A DNA stretch of 22,548 nucleotides, from positions 1 through 22,548 of the IMG/VR virus record IMGVR_UViG_3300025645_000502; one strand, written 5' to 3'. The notes below the pieces were generated by a model that saw only the letters and a program-made list of their open reading frames with translations, had not been told where the DNA came from and ran no database searches. Position 1 is the first letter of the stretch. The number at the start of each line of letters is the position of its first letter. Shown piece by piece: positions 7,781-22,548 of the stretch. The translations under genes were made by a program, and so were the position numbers. This DNA is from a virus.

Positions 7781-7939
7781 ATGGAGGAGACACTACAAAG
7801 ATTATCCGTAGGAATCTTCGGATGGATAGCCACGGATACATTACAGAATGTGGACTTAATGTTAGGTGTAGTGTCTAAGGGAGTCTTAATTACTTTAACA
7901 GTTTTATCAATCTATAAACTATGGAGGGAACTTAAATGA
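7781..7939 (+). CDS. 52-aa single-span membrane protein
   Basis: I place the start at the ATG at 7781, one base after the previous TAG. An upstream ATG in the same frame at 7724 would overlap the previous gene by 56 bases. The protein has one clear hydrophobic segment (residues about 25-45, MLGVVSKGVLITLTVLSIYKLW) and a short positively charged C-terminus (WRELK), so its C-terminus is likely cytoplasmic. The N-terminal part is moderately amphipathic. It precedes the holin-like gene and overlaps it by four bases (ATGA). A small holin, antiholin or other lysis partner is a reasonable inference; nothing in the sequence decides this. Confidence 0.7.
   Translation: MEETLQRLSVGIFGWIATDTLQNVDLMLGVVSKGVLITLTVLSIYKLWRELK
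7923..7927 (+). promoter_or_regulatory. Shine-Dalgarno site GGAGG of the holin-like gene
   Basis: GGAGG eight bases upstream of the ATG at 7936, lying inside the 3' end of the preceding gene. It supports the ATGA-overlap start. Confidence 0.75.
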
Positions 7940-8343
7940 CACCAGAATTATTAGCAATGTTAGGTGGTGGAGCTAGTGGCTTCATCTTTAAACTAGTAGG
8001 TACATTGGTACAAAATCAAGCAGCACTCACTAAAGGACTAATTGAAAAACAAAAAGCATCAGACGAAAGTGCCGATGCCGCAGCAAAAAGGGTAGATGCC
8101 TTTGGTGCTTGGACACGCAGGATTATTGTATTAACAGTTTTATTTGGTGTTATTATTGCACCATTTATTTTAGCAAATAGTGATTCAGGAGTTACTATTG
8201 CTACTGATTACAGTAATTGGTTTGGAATCTTTAAGGGTACAAATTATCAAACCCTACATGGATATATAATTTTACCAGAAATCAAGACAGCTGTTATCAG
8301 TATTATCAGTTTCTACTTCGGTAGTGCAGCAGTAAGTAAATAA
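7936..8343 (+). CDS. Holin-like membrane protein
   Basis: A 135-aa protein. The N-terminus has a glycine-rich hydrophobic stretch (LAMLGGGASGFIFKLVGTL). A charged helix follows (LIEKQKASDESADAAAKRVDAF), then a strong membrane span at about 67-86 (IIVLTVLFGVIIAPFILA). A loop with WFGIFKG follows, and a last hydrophobic segment near 112-132 (AVISIISFYFGSAA). I remember a phage family with exactly this plan, in which an MLGGGASGFIFK-like start and a TRRIIVLTVLF span are conserved; its members are commonly labelled holin-like without proof. The small size, the membrane spans and the neighbouring tiny membrane proteins support a lysis role. No endolysin is recognisable in the window. Alternatively it could be an inner-membrane virion component. 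Confidence 0.65.
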   Translation: MTPELLAMLGGGASGFIFKLVGTLVQNQAALTKGLIEKQKASDESADAAAKRVDAFGAWTRRIIVLTVLFGVIIAPFILANSDSGVTIATDYSNWFGIFKGTNYQTLHGYIILPEIKTAVISIISFYFGSAAVSK

Positions 8344-8345
8344 TT

Positions 8346-8525
8346 ATGAACGAGTGTTATATTTGTAAATGGACAAAAAACAAGCCAGAAAAGAACTGCA
8401 AACTCTCAGGGACTCCATCACCAAAGTGCTTGGCGAAAAGAGTAACGAAGATATTAGCGAGCATATACAAGAGGCTCAAGAGTCTGCTAGTGAAGGTGCT
8501 AAAGCGCTTAAGAAATCTCTTATAG
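8346..8525 (+). CDS. Overlapping 59-aa ORF: CxxC head plus cationic amphipathic helix
   Basis: Starting at the ATG at 8346, two bases after the holin-like stop in the same TAATTATG junction used by several other genes here, a frame runs 59 codons to the TAG at 8523-8525. Cysteines are at residues 4, 7, 18 and 28 (C-x2-C-x10-C-x9-C), a possible zinc-binding or disulfide head. Residues 29-59 contain ten Lys/Arg and no acidic residue. Leu, Val and Ile recur every three to four positions, giving a textbook amphipathic cationic helix. Most of it overlaps, in another frame, the 5' part of the gene starting at 8369. It resembles in concept the disruptins, cationic peptides that disrupt the outer membrane in place of spanins. 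The composition and start context are seen directly; translation and function are inferred. Confidence 0.45.
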   Translation: MNECYICKWTKNKPEKNCKLSGTPSPKCLAKRVTKILASIYKRLKSLLVKVLKRLRNLL

Positions 8526-9133
8526 AGAGAATCAAGGATTTACCAGTCGTAACTCAAGTATCTCAGCTTGGGGCAGCTGGTACTGTGGCTGTATCTACAG
8601 CTGCTGTAACACAGGTAGACATCGCTAAAGATAGGACTGAGATATTTGTAGCAGAGGTTGCTCAAGATGTAGTAGAACAAAGATTTGAAGTTCCACAGTT
8701 TATTGATAACTTTGTGGACTTTGCTAGTCTTAACGATTGGGGACAAGAAGTTATTGCTGAGAAGATTCAGGAGGCTCAGGCTTTTGTAGCAGAGGCTTCC
8801 GAACCACAACAGACTTCCACACCATCTGCTGAGTCTTCGGACACCACACCTGAAACCTCGTCTTCTTCGCAAGATAGTTCCTCCGATAGTCCTTCTCAGC
8901 CTTCAGAAACTGAAGAACCCCAAGAACCAAAATCAGAAGAGTCAGAGCCAAAAGAGGGTAAATCATCCTCAGAGCCTACTGAAGAGCCTAAGGAAGTCAA
9001 GTCTAATGATGAGCCTAAGGAAGAGTCAAAAGGCGATACAGAGCAATCTGAGGCTAAATCTAATGCCATACCTATAGTTGAAACACCTATAGATAATGAC
9101 TCATCAATTAGACAAGTATCACCAACATCATGA
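8369..9133 (+). CDS. Ser/Glu/Pro-rich protein of unknown function
   Basis: A 254-aa protein in two parts. Residues 1-150 are helical: a basic/acidic N-terminus (MDKKQARKELQTLRDSI), an Ala/Val-rich patch at about 69-84 (GAAGTVAVSTAAVTQV) that might touch a membrane, then helices with EVPQFIDNFVDFASL. Residues about 151-235 are a low-complexity tail of Ser, Thr, Glu, Pro and Lys with repeated EEPKE-like units. I do not recognise the family. The start at 8369 is preceded in frame by a TAA at 8366-8368, so no longer form is possible. It has no Shine-Dalgarno site and would be read either independently or by coupling to the overlapping frame that starts at 8346. It overlaps the next gene by four bases (ATGA). 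Confidence 0.7.
   Translation: MDKKQARKELQTLRDSITKVLGEKSNEDISEHIQEAQESASEGAKALKKSLIERIKDLPVVTQVSQLGAAGTVAVSTAAVTQVDIAKDRTEIFVAEVAQDVVEQRFEVPQFIDNFVDFASLNDWGQEVIAEKIQEAQAFVAEASEPQQTSTPSAESSDTTPETSSSSQDSSSDSPSQPSETEEPQEPKSEESEPKEGKSSSEPTEEPKEVKSNDEPKEESKGDTEQSEAKSNAIPIVETPIDNDSSIRQVSPTS
8984..9023 (+). repeat. Short direct repeat in the low-complexity tail
   Basis: The 13-mer GAGCCTAAGGAAG occurs at 8984-8996 and again at 9011-9023, encoding EPKE units in the Ser/Glu/Pro-rich tail. It probably reflects slippage or duplication inside a disordered region. Confidence 0.6.
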
Positions 9134-9537
9134 ATGCAAAAGAATATGCCCAAAAAAGAGTAGATGATAAACTACTTGGTTATAAAATAAGAGCTAAATT
9201 ATTTTCTGGAGAAGATAATTACTTTAAACAAAACCCCAATGTTGCAGGAATGGCTAATTTTGAAACCAATGATATTGTATTAAACCCATACTCAAAAGAT
9301 AGAAATATGGAATCAGTAGCAATGAATGAAGCCATAAGATTAAAAATGAGAAAAGAGGGGTTTGTTCCAGATATAGAAATATCAGACGAACAAAAACAGT
9401 TTTTTAAAGGAACTGCCTATGAGGGTAATGATGATGCAATCAAGGAAACAATATTTGCTAGAATATACTCAAAGGACTCATCGGCTAATGCTACAGAAGA
9501 CCAAATGAAAGCATACAAAGAATATATAGGAAAATGA
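9130..9537 (+). CDS. Conserved-looking phage protein of unknown function
   Basis: A 135-aa soluble, charged protein without cysteines or membrane segments. Readable motifs are NPNVAGMANFETNDIVLNPY near residues 36-55, the helix NEAIRLKMRKEGFVPDIE, then SDEQKQFFKGTAYEGND and IFARIYSKD. A final helix has ATEDQMKAYKEYIG. I remember this pattern (N-P-x-V-A-G-M-A...I-V-L-N-P-Y) from marine phage proteins with no assigned function. The family is therefore probably real and widespread, but that is memory only. It overlaps its neighbours by four bases on both sides (ATGA), placing it firmly in the same translation unit as the small membrane proteins. Confidence 0.75.
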   Translation: MNAKEYAQKRVDDKLLGYKIRAKLFSGEDNYFKQNPNVAGMANFETNDIVLNPYSKDRNMESVAMNEAIRLKMRKEGFVPDIEISDEQKQFFKGTAYEGNDDAIKETIFARIYSKDSSANATEDQMKAYKEYIGK

Positions 9538-9698
9538 TAGAATTTATTTTAACTCACTATAAAGACGACTTACTAGCTATGGCATTTGCCTACATTGGTA
9601 TAATATCTATTATAATGATGTTCTTACCAAAGGACAACTTCATTAAAAAATTCTTCAAAGAATTTGCATCAATCTTTACAACTTTTTTTAAAAAATGA
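9534..9698 (+). CDS. 54-aa single-span membrane protein
   Basis: An ATG at 9534 within the ATGA overlap opens a 54-codon frame ending at the TGA at 9696-9698, which overlaps the next start. The protein has a short polar N-terminus (MIEFILTHYKDD), one strong membrane span at about residues 14-31 (LAMAFAYIGIISIIMMFL) and a C-terminus rich in Phe and Lys (FIKKFFKEFASIFTTFFKK), which looks like an amphipathic basic tail. The tight overlaps on both sides and the coherent composition make it a real gene despite its size. It may belong to the lysis set (holin or spanin-like partner) or act with the VPEP-tailed protein that follows. I cannot assign a function. Confidence 0.7.
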   Translation: MIEFILTHYKDDLLAMAFAYIGIISIIMMFLPKDNFIKKFFKEFASIFTTFFKK

Positions 9699-10000
9699 GC
9701 CACGAATTTTCAGAATTAGATATTAACAATGACTCCGACTATGGTTGGGGTGAAAGCATTACATCAACCAATTACAATTATTTCTTTGTACCTTCTATAC
9801 CTGAGTGGGCATATAGTGAGTATGATGGCTTATACTATGAAGGCGTACAATACAATTGGGATGAGGTAGATTACAGATTAACTGTAGATTACAATAGTGT
9901 ACCTGAGCCAGCAGATGCAGGATTCATAGGTGCATTGATGGTAGGAATTTTTGTAGCATTCTGTTACTTTAAAAACAAGAAAGATATGGAGGAAAAATAA
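9695..10000 (+). CDS. 101-aa protein with PEP-CTERM-like C-terminal anchor
   Basis: Residues 1-68 are acidic and rich in Tyr, Trp, Asp and Ser (IPEWAYSEYDGLYYEG). The last third shows a tripartite tail: V69-P70-E71-P72, a hydrophobic segment at about 76-92 (GFIGALMVGIFVAFCYF) and a lysine cluster (KNKK). This is the layout of PEP-CTERM sorting signals, which exosortase/EpsH enzymes cut at the PEP box in bacteria that make exopolysaccharide. However, I see no N-terminal signal peptide and no exosortase in the window, and the final DMEEK is longer than the usual tail. A tail-anchored phage membrane protein with a chance VPEP is the simple alternative. The start is set by an ATGA overlap with the preceding tiny membrane protein. 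Confidence 0.7.
   Translation: MSHEFSELDINNDSDYGWGESITSTNYNYFFVPSIPEWAYSEYDGLYYEGVQYNWDEVDYRLTVDYNSVPEPADAGFIGALMVGIFVAFCYFKNKKDMEEK
9988..9992 (+). promoter_or_regulatory. Shine-Dalgarno site GGAGG before the basic-protein cluster
   Basis: GGAGG ten bases upstream of the ATG at 10003, at the head of the run of tiny basic genes. It supports the reality of the first, 27-codon gene. Confidence 0.7.
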
Positions 10001-10199: not shown

Positions 10200-10348
10200 T
10201 GGCTAAGATATGCAAGAGAGGTGTAGCGTGGGCTAGGAGAACTTTTGACAAGTATCCTAGTGCTTACGCAAATATGGCTGCCTCCAAGTATTGCAAAGAC
10301 CCCAACTATGCCAAAGGCGCTAAAGGCAAGAAAAGAAAGAAGAAGTAA
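10199..10348 (+). CDS. 49-aa basic protein with conserved-looking YPSAYAN motif
   Basis: It starts in a TAATG overlap. It contains C5, a short helix GVAWARRTFDKYPSAYANMA, C32 in ASKYCKDPNYAKG and a terminal block of eight basic residues in nine. The motif A-x-R-x-F-D-x-Y-P-S-A-Y-A-N-x-x-A-S-K-x-C is one I recognise from tiny phage (and giant-virus-related) proteins, where it is conserved though unassigned. Two cysteines separated by one helix suggest a small fold, and the basic tail suggests contact with nucleic acid. It overlaps the next gene by one base. Confidence 0.7.
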   Translation: MAKICKRGVAWARRTFDKYPSAYANMAASKYCKDPNYAKGAKGKKRKKK

Positions 10349-10602
10349 TGGGTGAACTCAAAAAGTGGAGAGAACAAAACTGGGTTAGGATTGGAACTGA
10401 TGGGAAGATTAAAGGACCTTGCGGAACTTCAAAAAACAAAAAGAACCCAGACCGTTGCCTTCCAATGGCTAAAGCCAAGAGTTTATCTCAATCTGAGCGA
10501 GCAGCCACAGCAAAGAAAAAGAAAAGAGCTGGTTCAAAGGGCAAGCAATTTGTGGCAAATACACCTAGAGCCAAGGTATCATTCAAAAGAAAGAAAGCAT
10601 GA
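10348..10602 (+). CDS. 84-aa basic protein with W-x2-x-W and two cysteines
   Basis: It begins MGELKKWREQNWVRIGTDG, continues with IKGPCGTSKNKKNPDRCLPM (C near 28 and 40) and then a long lysine/arginine-rich helix to the end. The pattern L-x-x-W-x-x-x-x-W-V-x-I followed by G-x-C-G and R-C-L-P resembles a small family found in phages and large DNA viruses; this is my recollection, not checked. The Cys pair and basic tail fit a DNA- or RNA-binding structural protein, but no activity is known. The start lies in a TAATG overlap and the stop overlaps the next gene (ATGA). Confidence 0.75.
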   Translation: MGELKKWREQNWVRIGTDGKIKGPCGTSKNKKNPDRCLPMAKAKSLSQSERAATAKKKKRAGSKGKQFVANTPRAKVSFKRKKA

Positions 10603-10862
10603 AAAGAAAACTCATAGGAGATAGCTTTGACTCAGAAGGTAGTGGATATGATTATGCAGGTGCAGGATTTGATGTAACTAGAGATGCTCTAGGTAAAATG
10701 CGTTCAAGAAACCCAAGGACTGGACAAATACTTAAAGGAAGAAAACACCCAACATATGAATTAACAAAAAAGGGAGAAAAGGAAGCAGGATATGCTATTG
10801 GTAAGTTATTTCCTAAAGGCAAATATACATCTTATAAACCAAATAGAAAGACAGTAAAGTGA
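10599..10862 (+). CDS. 87-aa basic protein with LKGRKHPTY motif
   Basis: The N-terminal third is acidic and glycine-rich (DSFDSEGSGYDYAGAGFD), followed by TRDALGKMRSRNPRTGQ, the motif LKGRKHPTYELTKKGEKEAG and a Lys/Tyr-rich end (FPKGKYTSYKPNRK). Such L-K-G-x-x-H-P-T-Y/F motifs occur in short phage and algal-virus proteins that keep company with the SFCARMSG-type protein encoded next to it. That pairing is from memory. It has no cysteines or membrane segment. It overlaps both neighbours by four bases (ATGA, GTGA), consistent with one co-translated set. Confidence 0.75.
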   Translation: MKRKLIGDSFDSEGSGYDYAGAGFDVTRDALGKMRSRNPRTGQILKGRKHPTYELTKKGEKEAGYAIGKLFPKGKYTSYKPNRKTVK

Positions 10863-11095
10863 AGAAAGAACATAAAAGCAAAAAGGGAGGACTAACTGCC
10901 GCAGGAAGAGCTTACTTCAAGAGAAAGACTGGTGCTAACTTACAAGCTCCAGTTACTGAGTCTAAGCCAACAGGTAAGAAGGCAGCTAGAAAGAAATCAT
11001 TTTGTGCCAGAATGTCTGGTGTCAAAGGTCCAATGAAGGACAAAAAAGGAAGACCAACTCGTAAAGCACTAGCGTTGCGTAGATGGAAATGTTAA
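10859..11095 (+). CDS. 78-aa basic protein of the SFCARMSG type (DUF6321-like)
   Basis: A GTG start at 10859 overlaps the previous TGA. The residues read KSKKGGLTAAGRAYFKRKTG, then NLQAPVTESKPTGKKAARK, then the hallmark KSFCARMSGVKGPMKDKKGR and the end ALALRRWKC. I know this arrangement as a widespread small family in phages and large DNA viruses, which I believe is DUF6321, without a known function. The two cysteines (in SFCARM and the last residue) and dense Lys/Arg are typical. The family is strongly basic and may bind packaged DNA or RNA; that is inference. A 12-base gap separates it from the next gene. Confidence 0.8.
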   Translation: MKKEHKSKKGGLTAAGRAYFKRKTGANLQAPVTESKPTGKKAARKKSFCARMSGVKGPMKDKKGRPTRKALALRRWKC

Positions 11096-16907: not shown

Positions 16908-19900
16908 ATGCCTGAAACTGTACAAACCTTTGCCCAAAGAGTAAAAGAGAAAGACCCTAGTTACAGGGGTATGGATGATGCTCGTGTTGTGTACGATGTA
17001 CTCAATGAATCTCCTGTATATAGACAAAGGTTTCTACCACAAGAAAGAAGAAACAATATCTTTGGTACTATATTCAGGGAAGCATTACTTGGATTTGCAG
17101 AAACTGGTAGTAAAACAGTAGAAGGTATTGGGTTCAATCTAGCCTCAATGATTGCCTCTGAAACAATGACAGAGGAGGAGTTCAATCAAAGTGATAAGGC
17201 TGGCACAATGTCTTATCAGGACTACAAGGAACACAACGATGAGAGAGTAGAGGTAGAGAACAAGGCTATTGCTCATGCTCAGAATGTAGGAGACTTTTTT
17301 AAAAACTTAACACCAGAGGATACAGCTGGACCACAGGGTACATTTGAAACACTTGTTGGTCAAGTAGCCAGAGGCTTAGGACAATTTGCTGGATACGCTG
17401 CTGCTGGTACTGCTGTTACTGCCGCAGGTACAGCCTTGGGTAGTCCAGTAGGTGGTGCTGCCGCAGCTACTGCTTCCATATATACTATTGCTACAATGAA
17501 CAGACAAATGGAGTTCATTGATGATGCAGAGAGAACTCTTGGTAAAAATATCACAGAGATGTCTGCTGATGAGAAGGACAAGATTACAAAGGGTAGTCTT
17601 GGCTATGGTGCAATAACAGGTGCGCTTGACGCAACAGTATTTAAATATGTTGCTGGTATGCCCAATGCCTTGAAGTCAGTTCTTCAAAAAGCAAAGATAG
17701 GCAAGCCAGTATCTGAGAAATTATTTAAGTCAGCACTCGCACAAGCATCAAGCAACGCACTCAAGAGAGGTGCAGCAGAAGGTTTACAAGAATCTATTGG
17801 TGATGGTATGACACTAGACATCATGGCTAAGAACCTTTACGATGAAGAAAGAAAGTTCATCACAGGTGATGCCCTTGGTCGCAGAATCATGGAGTTCACA
17901 GTTGGTGGATTAGTCGGTGGTATTGGTTCAGGTATTGGCGATAGTGGCAAATTGCTACAAGGTAAGGCTATCACTCCAGAGGGTCAGCAAAGACTCAATG
18001 ACGAGACAGATAGAATCCTTGAGGCAATGCCTAGTGTAGATAGAGAGAAAATCGCCAAAGCTATACTTGATGGAGACCCAAATCCAGAGATTACTGTATT
18101 TGATTTAAATGGTACACCAGTAAATGTAAAGGTCACAAGCTACGAACAAGATGGAAAGATTGAGGTAGAGACTCAAGATGGTATCAAGCAAGTCTTAGGA
18201 GAAGGAGACTTAGTTGAATACAATAGTCGTAGTCCTGAATACACCTTACAAGTAGAGACAGAGACTGGTAAGCCAGACCAAAAACTTAGTGACTTATCTT
18301 CTCAGGAACTAGACAAAGCTATCAAGGAAAGAGAAGCATATGCTGAAGAGAATGCACAAAGCGAAGACCCTATGTTTGTACAAGGAGTTAACAATGCTTT
18401 GGGTGATGTGTTTGCTTTGAGAGCAGAGAAGCGTAGAAGGGCTAGACTAGAGAGAGAAGCTGGAAGACCAGTAGAACCAAAGCAGCCTAAGAAGAAAGCT
18501 AAGGATGTGGACCAAACTGGTGGTCAAACATTTACTGTTACATATGTGTCCAAGGAGAGTGGGCTAAAGACTACTACTGAGGTTGTAGCGAGTTCACTAG
18601 AAGAAGCAGAGACACAATTTAGGAATTTATATAAAGATGATATTTCAAGAGATGGTGCTGTAGAGGTTACTGTCAAAGGAAAGCCAGAGCCAGCTCCAAC
18701 TGAGCCAGTACCAACTGAGCCAGTACCAACTGAGCCAGTACCAGAGCCGACACCTGAAGTTGATTACAGTAATGTTAAAGTAGGTGACACTATAAAAATT
18801 TATGGCGTTACTGGAAAAGAGTCTGATGTTGAAGTAATTGGAGTTTCGGATTCTGGGACTATAAGATTCAGAAGAAAAGATGGCTCAGAAGGTATAGTAG
18901 GATTAGAAACAGACTCTGTTTTATTTAATATAAACTCAACTAACTATACAACTCAAGCGAGAGGAACTGGTTTTGGTGGTAGAAAAATTTCTGATATGAC
19001 AGATGCTGAACTAAAAGAGTTAGCTAACATCATTGACGAAAAATTTAAATCAAAGAAAATTCCCAAGGATGGTAAGGAAGCTACTTCTCTGGAACACCTA
19101 GCTGATAGAAATGCTATCAAGTTAGAGCAAAAGAGAAGAAAACAAAAGCCAGAGCCTACTCCACCAGAAACAGAGACAACTCCACCAGAACCAGATGTCG
19201 AAGAAGGAGAAACAAACCTCAAGCCAAAGATAGTAAAAACATCTGCTGAAACTGGAGGCTATCCTTTATCCAAGATAACTATTCGTGGTAAGGATATATT
19301 TATTGGTGCTGTGGATGCAGTTGGTGGTGGTAGACATTATCATGTTACGGATGAGGGTGGATTTACTTTCTTGGAGCTAGATGGTGAAACAAAAACAGAG
19401 GATACATTTTTATTTTTACCAAGAACTAGGAAAGAACTCATAGAAGAACTTAAGAAGTTCTATAAGGTAGGTGAGCCAACTAAAAAAGCACCAAAGAAAA
19501 CAGCCCCAAAGCCAGAGCCTACTACAACAGATAGACCAGAGCTAGATGTTGGTACGCCTCTTGACCCAATCCCTGAAGAGAAGTTTGATGAACCAGAACT
19601 TAGTCTTGTTGAAAGAGAAATCAATGAGGCAAATGTAATTAAATTCATTACACAGAAGTTTGGTAACATATTTAATTCTGACTTACTTGCATTAGGTGGG
19701 ACTAAGCTAAGAGTAAAGTTCGTAAGTAAATCACCAAAGGATAGCGGAACTATAGCTGTTTATAAGAGAGTTGATGCTTTATTTGACCCAAATAAAGACC
19801 AAGTATTTAGCGACAAAGACCATACAATTATATTCTATGTAGATAAATTAATGGAAGGAGGGGACGGAACTCGTGGCATAATTAAGACTGTTCGCCATGA

Positions 19901-22548
19901 GTTGATGCACGCAATCGGTCGTGTTGCTGCTGCAAAGAAAGGTAAGAGCGTCACTAAGTTATACGAAGCAATTAGCAAGTCCATGACCCCTGACCAAAGA
20001 AGATTGATGGACGAACTATACGCTCGTAAGGGATACCAATATAGTAGTGGTCAACATAATGGTAGAGGAGCTGAGTTTTTTAGAGCAATATTGGAAGAAT
20101 TTGGATACGGTACTCCTAGTGAGGAAAACTCAAGAAGAAAAGAAATACTCAAGAAAGGTACAGCTTTCGAGAAAGTTACACAACTTATCAAGGACATACA
20201 GTCCTATATCGCAAACTTCTTCAAAGGAGATGTGTTAACAAATCCAGAGGTTGCTACATTGTTTATTGATTCAGTAAACCTTTTAGCACAACTTGACCCC
20301 AAGGCTAGACCAGTTAATCAAAAGCTAGTAGACTTAGTTCGCTCCAGAATATCTCCTAACACAGATACTTTGTATGACAATGTAAATGATTATACAAAAA
20401 ATATGGAGACATTCGTAGATGAGCAGTTGGCTCAAGATGATGGCAAAAAAGTAAAGCACGAACAAGTACCCAAGGACACTACAGCAAAGGGTATGAGCTT
20501 TGCTTCAAAGTATTTAATACCAGTTGGTCAAGTATTGGGCAACATACATTCTGACTTAGAGAAAGCATTCCATAAGTATATACAAATCAAGGATGAAAAG
20601 ATTTTAATAAGACACAGAATGGCTCGTCCTTTCTCTGAGAAGATGAAGGCACTCAAGAAATCTAATGAGGGTGACTACATCAAGCTATGGGCATTGATTG
20701 CATTTAGTCCAAACGCTACGGAGTCTCGCTATAGTGCAGATGAGCAAAACCAATTCATTGAAGAACGAAATACTTTACTCAAGAAGTATGGTATGTACAA
20801 TGAATACCTAGCTACTCGTAAGGTACTAGACAATGTAATGAATGATGCCTTGGATACAGGCATTGAGATTGGATTCCTTGAGCAATACTTCCCTCGTTAT
20901 CTAAACCCAGAGGGCAGAGCTGGATTCCTCAAGAAGTATGCAGGCATAGACAGAAGGACATTCTTGGGAGAGATAGATGCAGAGAACAAGCGAAGAGCTA
21001 ATCTCAAGGCAACAAGATATGTACTAAAACTAAACGGAGAAGACATCGGTACATTTGGCAGACGCTCTGCTGCTGCAACAGCGAGAGCAAGAAGGGCTGC
21101 TGAACTAGGAGTAACCGAACAAGATATTGAGATTGTAGCAATGGAGCTACCTGCGCCACAGCCTCCAATAGAAGAAGGTTCTATACAAGAGGTACAGTTT
21201 ATACAGAAGTTACTCAATGACCCTAAGTATAGAGGAAAGGGTAAATCAAACTTCCAGAAACAGCGTGTTATTGAAAAGATTTCAGAGGAAGATACTCAGT
21301 ATTACTTAGACCCAATGCAGGCATACAGTAATTACATCACACAGATGACTACTACCATTGAGACTGCTAAGTTTGCTGGAGTCAATCAGCCAGAAGCAAA
21401 CGCACCAAGCAAGGATAGAATAACAGTTGAGTATGACCCAACATCAGAGCTAGGTAGATTGATTGCAAAACTAGCTAGAGAGAATCCTGACCCAGAGTTT
21501 CAGTCACAACTATACGAATATTTGCCACAAATATATAGGGCAATCATGTCTAAGGGTGCGCAAGAATATCAAGTGTTAGCTTGGATGCGTCAGTTCAGTT
21601 ACTTTAGTTTACTTGTTGAGATTACATCTACAATGTCTCAGCTATATGACTTACCATTTATCATGTATGACAATGGTTTCTTGAACACACTTCGTTCTAT
21701 GATTGGCAACAAGGAGTTCAATGTAGGAGATTACCTTGACCAAGACAGAATGGTTGAGCAAAACTTTGGTGGAGACAAGGATGCAGTATTAATGAAGTTA
21801 ACAAGTAAAGGACTTCAGCTAACTGGTTTCCGTAAGCTAGACCAAATCATGAAGAACACCACTATGGATGCAAACTATAAGAGGTACATGAGACTAGCTA
21901 GAGAGTTGAACTTATCTTACTTGAATCCAGATGGTTCAATCAAAGAAGAACACAAGAATAAATTTAATAACAAGCAAAGAAAGTTCTTAGCTGAACTCAA
22001 TCAATTCCTAAGTCCAGAGGTTACAAATCCAAATGAACCAATGGAGATGTTGGTTGCATTGAGAACACAGCCAGAGCAAAGAAGTCAAAGACAACAAGAC
22101 TTAATCAAGAGTACACTTGTAGCCAAGTTATTCCAGAATCAACCATTGTCTGAACTCCGTATGCCACTAGCTGTAAGACAAGACCCTAATATGCGTATGT
22201 GGTATACCATGAAATCATTTATGATTGTTCAAGTAAATACTGCTCGCAATCTTGCGTTCAACAAGATAGCTCGTGGACTAAACCAAGCTGTAAGAACTGG
22301 AGGCAAGGAAGGTGTAGACGAACTCAGAGAGGGTATGCTAAACTTACTTATACTCATGGGTTACTTTGTAATGCTTGGTATACCAGTTGACTTTGTAAAA
22401 GATATTATCGCAGGACGAGTTGGTTACATCTCTGACTATACATTTAACTCAATGGTTCGTGTGGCTGGTGTAAATAAATACTTCTTATACAAAGGACGCA
22501 ACGAAGGATATGGTACAGCTATCATGAACTTTGCGATGCCTGCACCTT
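16908..22548 (+). CDS. Giant virion protein with metallopeptidase motif and LPD38-like C-terminal part (3' end outside)
   Basis: An open frame from the ATG at 16908 (MPETVQTFAQRVKEKDPSYR) to the window edge, at least 1,880 codons with no stop seen. In order: a helical N-terminus; Gly/Ala-rich hydrophobic segments at about 148-197, 227-250 and 331-345 that could enter membranes; a linker with three PTEPV units (about 597-611); an SH3-like beta unit (VGDTIKIYG ... GTIRFRRKDG, about 620-670); two more Pro/Glu linkers (about 748-768 and 861-885); and H997-E-L-M-H1001, a zincin motif, with E1056 as a possible third ligand. A long helical region follows, ending in a segment (NKIARGLNQAV, NLLILMGYFVMLGIPVDFVK) like LPD38 of polyvalent proteins. 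It is probably packaged and ejected with the DNA, like T7 gp16. Metal binding is inferred. Confidence 0.8.
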   Translation, partial: MPETVQTFAQRVKEKDPSYRGMDDARVVYDVLNESPVYRQRFLPQERRNNIFGTIFREALLGFAETGSKTVEGIGFNLASMIASETMTEEEFNQSDKAGTMSYQDYKEHNDERVEVENKAIAHAQNVGDFFKNLTPEDTAGPQGTFETLVGQVARGLGQFAGYAAAGTAVTAAGTALGSPVGGAAAATASIYTIATMNRQMEFIDDAERTLGKNITEMSADEKDKITKGSLGYGAITGALDATVFKYVAGMPNALKSVLQKAKIGKPVSEKLFKSALAQASSNALKRGAAEGLQESIGDGMTLDIMAKNLYDEERKFITGDALGRRIMEFTVGGLVGGIGSGIGDSGKLLQGKAITPEGQQRLNDETDRILEAMPSVDREKIAKAILDGDPNPEITVFDLNGTPVNVKVTSYEQDGKIEVETQDGIKQVLGEGDLVEYNSRSPEYTLQVETETGKPDQKLSDLSSQELDKAIKEREAYAEENAQSEDPMFVQGVNNALGDVFALRAEKRRRARLEREAGRPVEPKQPKKKAKDVDQTGGQTFTVTYVSKESGLKTTTEVVASSLEEAETQFRNLYKDDISRDGAVEVTVKGKPEPAPTEPVPTEPVPTEPVPEPTPEVDYSNVKVGDTIKIYGVTGKESDVEVIGVSDSGTIRFRRKDGSEGIVGLETDSVLFNINSTNYTTQARGTGFGGRKISDMTDAELKELANIIDEKFKSKKIPKDGKEATSLEHLADRNAIKLEQKRRKQKPEPTPPETETTPPEPDVEEGETNLKPKIVKTSAETGGYPLSKITIRGKDIFIGAVDAVGGGRHYHVTDEGGFTFLELDGETKTEDTFLFLPRTRKELIEELKKFYKVGEPTKKAPKKTAPKPEPTTTDRPELDVGTPLDPIPEEKFDEPELSLVEREINEANVIKFITQKFGNIFNSDLLALGGTKLRVKFVSKSPKDSGTIAVYKRVDALFDPNKDQVFSDKDHTIIFYVDKLMEGGDGTRGIIKTVRHELMHAIGRVAAAKKGKSVTKLYEAISKSMTPDQRRLMDELYARKGYQYSSGQHNGRGAEFFRAILEEFGYGTPSEENSRRKEILKKGTAFEKVTQLIKDIQSYIANFFKGDVLTNPEVATLFIDSVNLLAQLDPKARPVNQKLVDLVRSRISPNTDTLYDNVNDYTKNMETFVDEQLAQDDGKKVKHEQVPKDTTAKGMSFASKYLIPVGQVLGNIHSDLEKAFHKYIQIKDEKILIRHRMARPFSEKMKALKKSNEGDYIKLWALIAFSPNATESRYSADEQNQFIEERNTLLKKYGMYNEYLATRKVLDNVMNDALDTGIEIGFLEQYFPRYLNPEGRAGFLKKYAGIDRRTFLGEIDAENKRRANLKATRYVLKLNGEDIGTFGRRSAAATARARRAAELGVTEQDIEIVAMELPAPQPPIEEGSIQEVQFIQKLLNDPKYRGKGKSNFQKQRVIEKISEEDTQYYLDPMQAYSNYITQMTTTIETAKFAGVNQPEANAPSKDRITVEYDPTSELGRLIAKLARENPDPEFQSQLYEYLPQIYRAIMSKGAQEYQVLAWMRQFSYFSLLVEITSTMSQLYDLPFIMYDNGFLNTLRSMIGNKEFNVGDYLDQDRMVEQNFGGDKDAVLMKLTSKGLQLTGFRKLDQIMKNTTMDANYKRYMRLARELNLSYLNPDGSIKEEHKNKFNNKQRKFLAELNQFLSPEVTNPNEPMEMLVALRTQPEQRSQRQQDLIKSTLVAKLFQNQPLSELRMPLAVRQDPNMRMWYTMKSFMIVQVNTARNLAFNKIARGLNQAVRTGGKEGVDELREGMLNLLILMGYFVMLGIPVDFVKDIIAGRVGYISDYTFNSMVRVAGVNKYFLYKGRNEGYGTAIMNFAMPAP
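18696..18740 (+). repeat. Three perfect 15-bp tandem repeats
   Basis: The unit CCAACTGAGCCAGTA occurs three times in a row (18696-18710, 18711-18725, 18726-18740) and encodes PTEPV three times in a proline-rich linker of the giant protein. The repeats are in frame and identical at the DNA level, so they are recent or freshly homogenised. Confidence 0.9.

Follow-up and report, generated by a model that had tools for sequence, protein, structure and literature searches.

Gene arrangement at the locus

The 22,548-nucleotide stretch of viral DNA analysed here (the window) carries a short open reading frame (ORF) that opens at 8346, just behind a gene for a holin-like protein, and runs out of frame into the gene starting at 8369 (the 8369 gene). 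The features of this locus are as follows.

7936..8343, + strand: gene of the holin-like protein directly upstream (PHROG 38283; its hydrophobic segments were read from the sequence, not computed)
8342..8348, + strand: AATT-ATG start context, also present at the starts 526, 4536, 7516 and 15182
8346..8525, + strand: overlapping gene of a 59-aa peptide with four cysteines and a predicted basic amphipathic helix (from frame conservation, selection tests and AlphaFold2)
8346..8372, + strand: head of the peptide, MNECYICKW, with its CxxC pair, lying for the most part ahead of the 8369 gene; 66 of 73 heads in the family have CxxC or CxC
8369..8525, + strand: dual-coding stretch common to the short ORF and the 8369 gene, 154 coding nt plus the stop codon of the short ORF
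8369..9133, + strand: gene hosting the overlap, encoding a 254-aa protein whose C-terminal half is acidic and rich in Ser, Glu and Pro; 111 viral contig stretches have relatives

The TAA codon of the upstream gene occupies positions 8341-8343 and is followed by TT and the ATG at 8346. The frame opened by this ATG has 59 codons, ends with TAG at 8523-8525 and lies in +1 relative to the 8369 gene, whose own start falls inside the short ORF. The peptide has cysteines at residues 4, 7, 18 and 28, while residues 29-59 include ten Lys/Arg and no Asp/Glu. The earlier note on this DNA had described the ATG two bases past the holin-like stop, the four cysteines, the 31 basic residues behind them and the overlap with the 8369 gene in another frame, and all of this was confirmed. 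Shine-Dalgarno-like motifs are rare at gene starts across the window, and such a motif is absent from 72 of the 73 short-ORF starts in the family. AATTATG occurs seven times in the window, five times at a gene start.

The holin-like gene has 254 relatives, and its product is 45% identical to a protein of the Verrucomicrobia phage P8625; we infer from its sequence that it may be a holin. Both P8625 and phage C75C1 have the holin-like gene only, without the 8369 gene. The phages of this group are tailed, have a major capsid protein of the SU10 type and are related to C75C1 (65% in the capsid protein) and, by way of the holin-like gene, to P8625. The short ORF usually stands directly 3' of the holin-like gene; in four relatives (L023, L035, L045 and L055) another small gene lies between them.

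The 8369 protein belongs to no Pfam, PHROG or NCBIfam family, and relatives were found neither in the isolated-phage collection nor in the bacterial and archaeal genomes searched. Its AlphaFold2 model is poor past the N-terminal helix. Together with a gene for a 54-aa protein with a single transmembrane (TM) segment (9534) and the 9695 gene, the 8369 gene forms a conserved unit (8369-10000 in the window) that relatives have at several places in the genome. In the window this unit is interrupted by gene 9130, which is missing from the relative L010.

The gene at 9695-10000 and its counterparts L075:6281-6547 and L028:4762-5004 encode a small phage protein with a PEP-CTERM-like tail (VPEP, a hydrophobic stretch and a basic end). 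The L075 homologue falls just below the Pfam and NCBIfam PEP-CTERM cut-offs, and the window copy gave no match. A PEP-CTERM-type sorting signal would be unusual on a phage protein and would hint at an exosortase-bearing host. Farther downstream, a cluster of small Lys-rich basic proteins (10348-11095), present in several copies or variants in relatives, includes one DUF6321 protein (PF19846, E 1e-29). An ORF of at least 1880 codons with a HELMH zincin-like motif runs off the window end (16908-22548); its relatives are 1841-2596 aa long.

Conservation of the overlapping frame

IMG/VR was searched for relatives of the holin-like gene and the 8369 protein, and the comparison set was formed by the 83 distinct 8369 homologues whose upstream sequence could be read. 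An upstream ATG opens the +1 frame in 73 of them, and in all 73 no stop closes it over the first 139-190 nt of the 8369 gene, so that the frame conservation proposed in the earlier note as a check was found. Meanwhile, in the ten homologues without the upstream ATG the +1 frame closes at 49-109 nt of the 8369 gene, and no form intermediate between the ORF-bearing and the ORF-lacking ones was seen among the 83. The sorting script used both the ATG and the openness of the frame; sorting by the ATG alone gives the same outcome.

In the ten ORF-lacking relatives, the 8369 gene lies at another genomic place, for example after a small TM gene or after basic genes. Judging from these sequences, the small gene is missing there rather than in decay. 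A broken 8346 frame beside an intact 8369 protein had been named in the earlier note as evidence against the ORF. This combination does occur in the ten relatives, but they also lack the start codon and have the 8369 gene relocated.

The 8369 protein does not by itself dictate an open +1 frame, because synonymous recoding of this protein rarely keeps the frame open (P ~0.005-0.01 per sequence; 0.3-1% for the window). Codon shuffling gave probabilities mostly at or below 0.01, with a maximum of ~0.04, and eight control homologues without the ORF have many +1 stops over the same stretch.

Selection on the dual-coding stretch

The choice of synonymous codons in the 8369 gene differs strongly between the overlap and the rest of the gene. 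In the ORF-bearing relatives, Leu codons ending in TA make up 8/305 (2.6%) in the overlap versus 187/284 (66%) in the rest of the gene; in the ORF-lacking controls, the corresponding stretch has 44 of 58 and the rest 31 of 49. On 23 dereplicated sequences this avoidance has p = 4e-32, the p-values in this study being nominal, since the sequences are related, and the effects very large. Ala, Ser and Thr codons of the overlap are enriched in third-base T (GCT/TCT/ACT; odds ratio ~3 versus downstream, nominal p = 5e-16). This base has no effect on stops; it turns the +1 residue into Leu or another large hydrophobic one.

Synonymous sites of the 8369 frame, which the earlier note had proposed to examine, were also constrained across the overlap. 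After codon-family correction, the ratio of observed to expected synonymous differences is 0.68 for pairs 75-97% identical, compared with ~1.0 in the relatives without the ORF. Over all pairs the ratio is 0.82 (column permutation, nominal p ~0.001), with the lowest values, 0.57-0.75, over the helix. An uncorrected profile of synonymous differences was set aside, as it is confounded by amino-acid composition. For the 20-codon non-overlapping head of the long-headed homologues, pN/pS is 0.25 when read in its own frame, against ~1.5 in either alternative frame.

By these measures, 8346-8525 is almost certainly a real protein-coding gene that lies out of frame over the 5' end of the 8369 gene and is under purifying selection at the amino-acid level in most lineages of this uncultured marine phage group.

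The predicted basic helix

The AlphaFold2 model of the peptide has a helix at residues 26-58 (block means 91-96) and a low-confidence helix at residues 5-20. Across the family the peptides are 48-78 aa long with a net charge of +10 to +22, that of the window peptide being +14. The structure gave no meaningful match in a Foldseek search, the sequence gave no match in the PDB, and no family was found for the peptide in Pfam, PHROGs or NCBIfam.

The short, cationic, amphipathic helical character, which is a disruptin trait, is present in the peptide and is largely a by-product of the host frame. GAR codons (Glu) become AR-N (Lys/Arg/Asn/Ser) one base on, and an acidic helix is therefore read as a basic one in +1. 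The overlap in the window has a net charge of 14 versus 12.5 in synonymously recoded sequences and a helical moment of 0.46 versus 0.47. The real peptides differ from the recoded ones in being more hydrophobic and having fewer prolines and more cysteines (mean z 1.3, -1.0 and 1.25, respectively). Selection has modestly refined the positive charge and amphipathicity, which otherwise follow mostly from the host frame. The cationic amphipathic peptide of the earlier note is thus there, but its character is no more than the 8369 frame alone would give. We rejected charge and amphipathicity as stand-alone evidence, since recoded 8369 sequences give almost equal values.

The four cysteines

Exactly four cysteines are found in 62 of the 73 peptides, and their placement takes two main forms: a pair each in head and overlap (2+2; 44 peptides) or all four in the head (4+0; 18 peptides). 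The pair in the tail occurs in 44 of the 48 peptides with two head cysteines, in none of the 18 with four and in none of the 7 without head cysteines, the overlap of the last holding one cysteine at most. The pattern holds among the 23 dereplicated sequences (13 of the 2+2 type, 5 of the 4+0 type, 4 without head cysteines and one 2+1). The spacings include Cx2Cx13Cx3C, Cx2Cx10Cx2C and Cx2Cx6Cx2C, and in some relatives the CxxC head is replaced by a CxxC-x6-CxxC head.

The four-cysteine total has probably been restored more than once, because the tree of these sequences puts 2+2 forms (L069/L205-L207 and L203) in two places inside the 4+0 clade and the distant 4+0 form L161 has a head of its own. 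The tail cysteines come from CTG, TTG and GTG codons of the 8369 frame; downstream, in the aligned part of the 8369 gene, CTG accounts for 2 of 147 Leu codons.

The simplest reading of the four cysteines would be a single Cys4 metal site, with two disulfides as the alternative. We consider it likely that the peptide combines one four-ligand cysteine site, most probably Zn(Cys)4, with a basic amphipathic helix formed by its C-terminal 33 residues. The near-constant four cysteines lend support, at the level of sequence patterns, to the metal-stabilised peptide suggested earlier. It should be noted that zinc-finger family profiles gave no match beyond chance for the peptide family; one weak match (PF16988, E 0.006) appeared in 1 of 47 members.

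Possible lysis setting of the short ORF

In five relatives (L063, L066, L068, L071 and L075), a lysozyme-like gene stands directly after the holin-like gene, in the slot of the short ORF. It has a conserved Glu and Asn-Gly-Gly and gives weak SLT and transglycosylase matches. Members of this divergent lysozyme-like family (conserved Glu, GDNG, NGG; L115:11449-11805, L118:2914-3285, L071:2861-3310, L075:2847-3404) either adjoin the holin-like gene on its downstream side or lie at another genomic place, and they are barely recognised by Pfam and PHROGs. For a comparison with the short ORF, a profile of the enzyme was searched in 38 records. Among those of at least 31 kb, the lysozyme-like gene is present in 2 of the 12 with the ORF and in all 3 without it (nominal one-sided Fisher test ~0.02, calculated by hand and ignoring descent and completeness). 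This partial inverse relation, drawn from few, related and possibly incomplete records, is suggestive. It is not a replacement rule, because three ORF-bearing records, two above 31 kb and the shorter G018, also have the lysozyme-like gene. In the ORF-lacking relative L037, a lysozyme-like match with in-frame stops (G030:C1:11342-11734) is perhaps an alignment spill or a decaying copy.

The earlier note had seen a real gap in the lysis genes of the window. The absence of endolysin and spanin there proves little, because the record is 22.5 kb long and relatives reach 35-40 kb, and we discarded the missing endolysin as weak evidence, the record being partial and several relatives having the lysozyme-like gene elsewhere. 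A gap may still hold: one 37.8 kb ORF-bearing relative gave no Pfam endolysin for any of its 41 ORFs, and four relatives scanned crudely for lipoboxes showed no convincing o-spanin.

A lysis role is plausible because the ORF adjoins the holin-like gene and shows the partial inverse relation with the lysozyme-like gene. The explanation that we favour as a whole, with a confidence a little short of even, is a real overlapping gene whose product has a Cys4 site and a basic helix and serves as a lysis accessory. Its functional part is tentative: the protein may be a membrane-active accessory of lysis, acting alongside the holin-like protein in the late phase of infection. A cysteine knuckle would fold the N-terminus of the peptide, and the leucine-faced, Lys/Arg-rich helix would lie on an anionic membrane surface and help to disrupt that membrane. 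Candidate surfaces are the inner leaflet or, once the holin opens the cell, the lipopolysaccharide of the outer membrane. As to origin, the +1 reading of an acidic Glu/Ala/Ser-rich helix would automatically yield a Lys/Arg/Leu-rich helix, to which selection would later have added cysteines while removing prolines and raising hydrophobicity. The membrane-activity reading is weakened because the host frame yields charge and amphipathicity anyway; the 7 peptides without head cysteines and the small gene intervening after the holin-like gene in some relatives also count against lysis. That an overprinted lysis effector, a basic helix with an added zinc knuckle, occupies in most of these marine phages the slot next to the holin-like gene in which relatives have the lysozyme-like gene, and aids lysis as a zinc-stabilised membrane-active peptide of an undescribed kind, is, in our estimate, improbable.

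Alternative explanations

The most serious rival, in our view still unlikely, makes the peptide a partner of the 8369 protein. Its basic helix would pair with the N-terminal helices of that protein, which are acidic and amphipathic and come from the same DNA, the overlap would match the synthesis of the two proteins, and both would belong to one virion or lysis module. The charges are indeed opposite, the peptide is found only with the 8369 gene and stays with it where other small genes intervene between the two and the holin-like gene, and Rz/Rz1 (PMC6139136) provide a precedent for complex-forming proteins from overlapping frames. Such co-occurrence is, however, forced by the shared DNA, and the ten relatives that keep the 8369 gene without the peptide indicate that this gene does not need it.

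Quite unlikely, too, is a small zinc-knuckle regulator with a head folded by a Cys4 site and a basic helix for binding to DNA, RNA or a host factor. The near-constant four cysteines with zinc-finger-like spacings, the net charge of the family and the many other small basic genes nearby are what such a regulator would have. Selection for a hydrophobic Leu-rich helix face is unusual in a plain nucleic-acid helix, however, several lineages lose the cysteines yet keep the helix, and a clear zinc-finger family match is missing.

Translation of the 8346 frame might merely set the ribosome supply for the 8369 start, which falls within it, with the peptide itself irrelevant; both starts are without a Shine-Dalgarno-like motif in nearly all relatives. 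We regard such a leader ORF as very improbable in the face of amino-acid-level selection (the head pN/pS, the conserved and relocated cysteines and the GCT/TCT/ACT bias), and the 46-63 overlapping codons would be needless for a leader. A programmed -1 frameshift joining the head to the 8369 frame as an alternative N-terminus could use the A AAA AAC heptamer just past the 8369 start in most close relatives of the window, but no slippery site is conserved family-wide and the end of the short ORF differs between clades; we rejected this product as extremely improbable. A chance open frame without a gene would fit the naturally Lys/Arg/Leu-rich reading of an acidic helix in +1, but it is contradicted by all selection tests and is hardly conceivable.

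Comparison with known systems

The original paper on disruptins is reportedly that of Holt et al. 2022. To our knowledge, a metal knuckle is no known feature of disruptins, and we know of no family signature against which the peptide could be tested. Disruptins are defined by completing lysis through breakage of the outer membrane. As described in PMC12819732, disruptins such as that of phage phiKT are short, basic phage peptides with an amphipathic helix, encoded near lysis genes. The membrane-active lysis accessory proposed here resembles them as a short basic peptide with an amphipathic helix near lysis genes, and in one near-complete relative the crude lipobox scan recognised no spanin. 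Unlike them, it is encoded out of frame inside another gene and has a probable Cys4 site. Since the look-alike features are partly automatic, the peptide should not, on present sequence patterns, be filed as a disruptin. Of the reading in the earlier note, the hidden overlapping gene stands, while a disruptin or lysis role is at most plausible.

With the Rz/Rz1 spanins (PMC6139136) the locus shares two phage proteins encoded by one DNA stretch in a +1 relation near a holin-like gene. The short ORF, however, starts upstream of the larger gene, not within it, and its peptide has no lipobox, signal peptide or TM segment; its helix is basic and leucine-faced, whereas Rz1-type proteins are Pro-rich outer-membrane lipoproteins. 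An o-spanin identity was rejected, the first cysteine being at residue 4 or nearby with no hydrophobic segment before it and no lipobox. Zinc-ribbon and zinc-knuckle small proteins likewise have paired CxxC motifs with four cysteines kept overall, but here the pairs relocate between head and overlap, and several lineages are without them.

Like other overprinted viral genes (reviewed in PMC8227390), the ORF is an extra frame within an existing gene whose synonymous sites are constrained. Compared with overprinted viral genes at large, it represents a new protein family; its carriers are marine tailed phages, and the phage collection has no annotated relative of the 8369 gene. Standard gene finders rarely keep an ORF that lies mostly inside another gene, and the conserved family has therefore probably gone unannotated in these marine phages so far. 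The 73 relatives with the ORF and the 10 without it provide a clean natural comparison for the birth of a gene inside a gene. The locus also illustrates how simply an acidic helix can give rise to a basic amphipathic one when its DNA is read in +1. Should the lysis role hold, a further gene type would join those behind lysis in marine phages that have no recognised spanins, a process still poorly understood.
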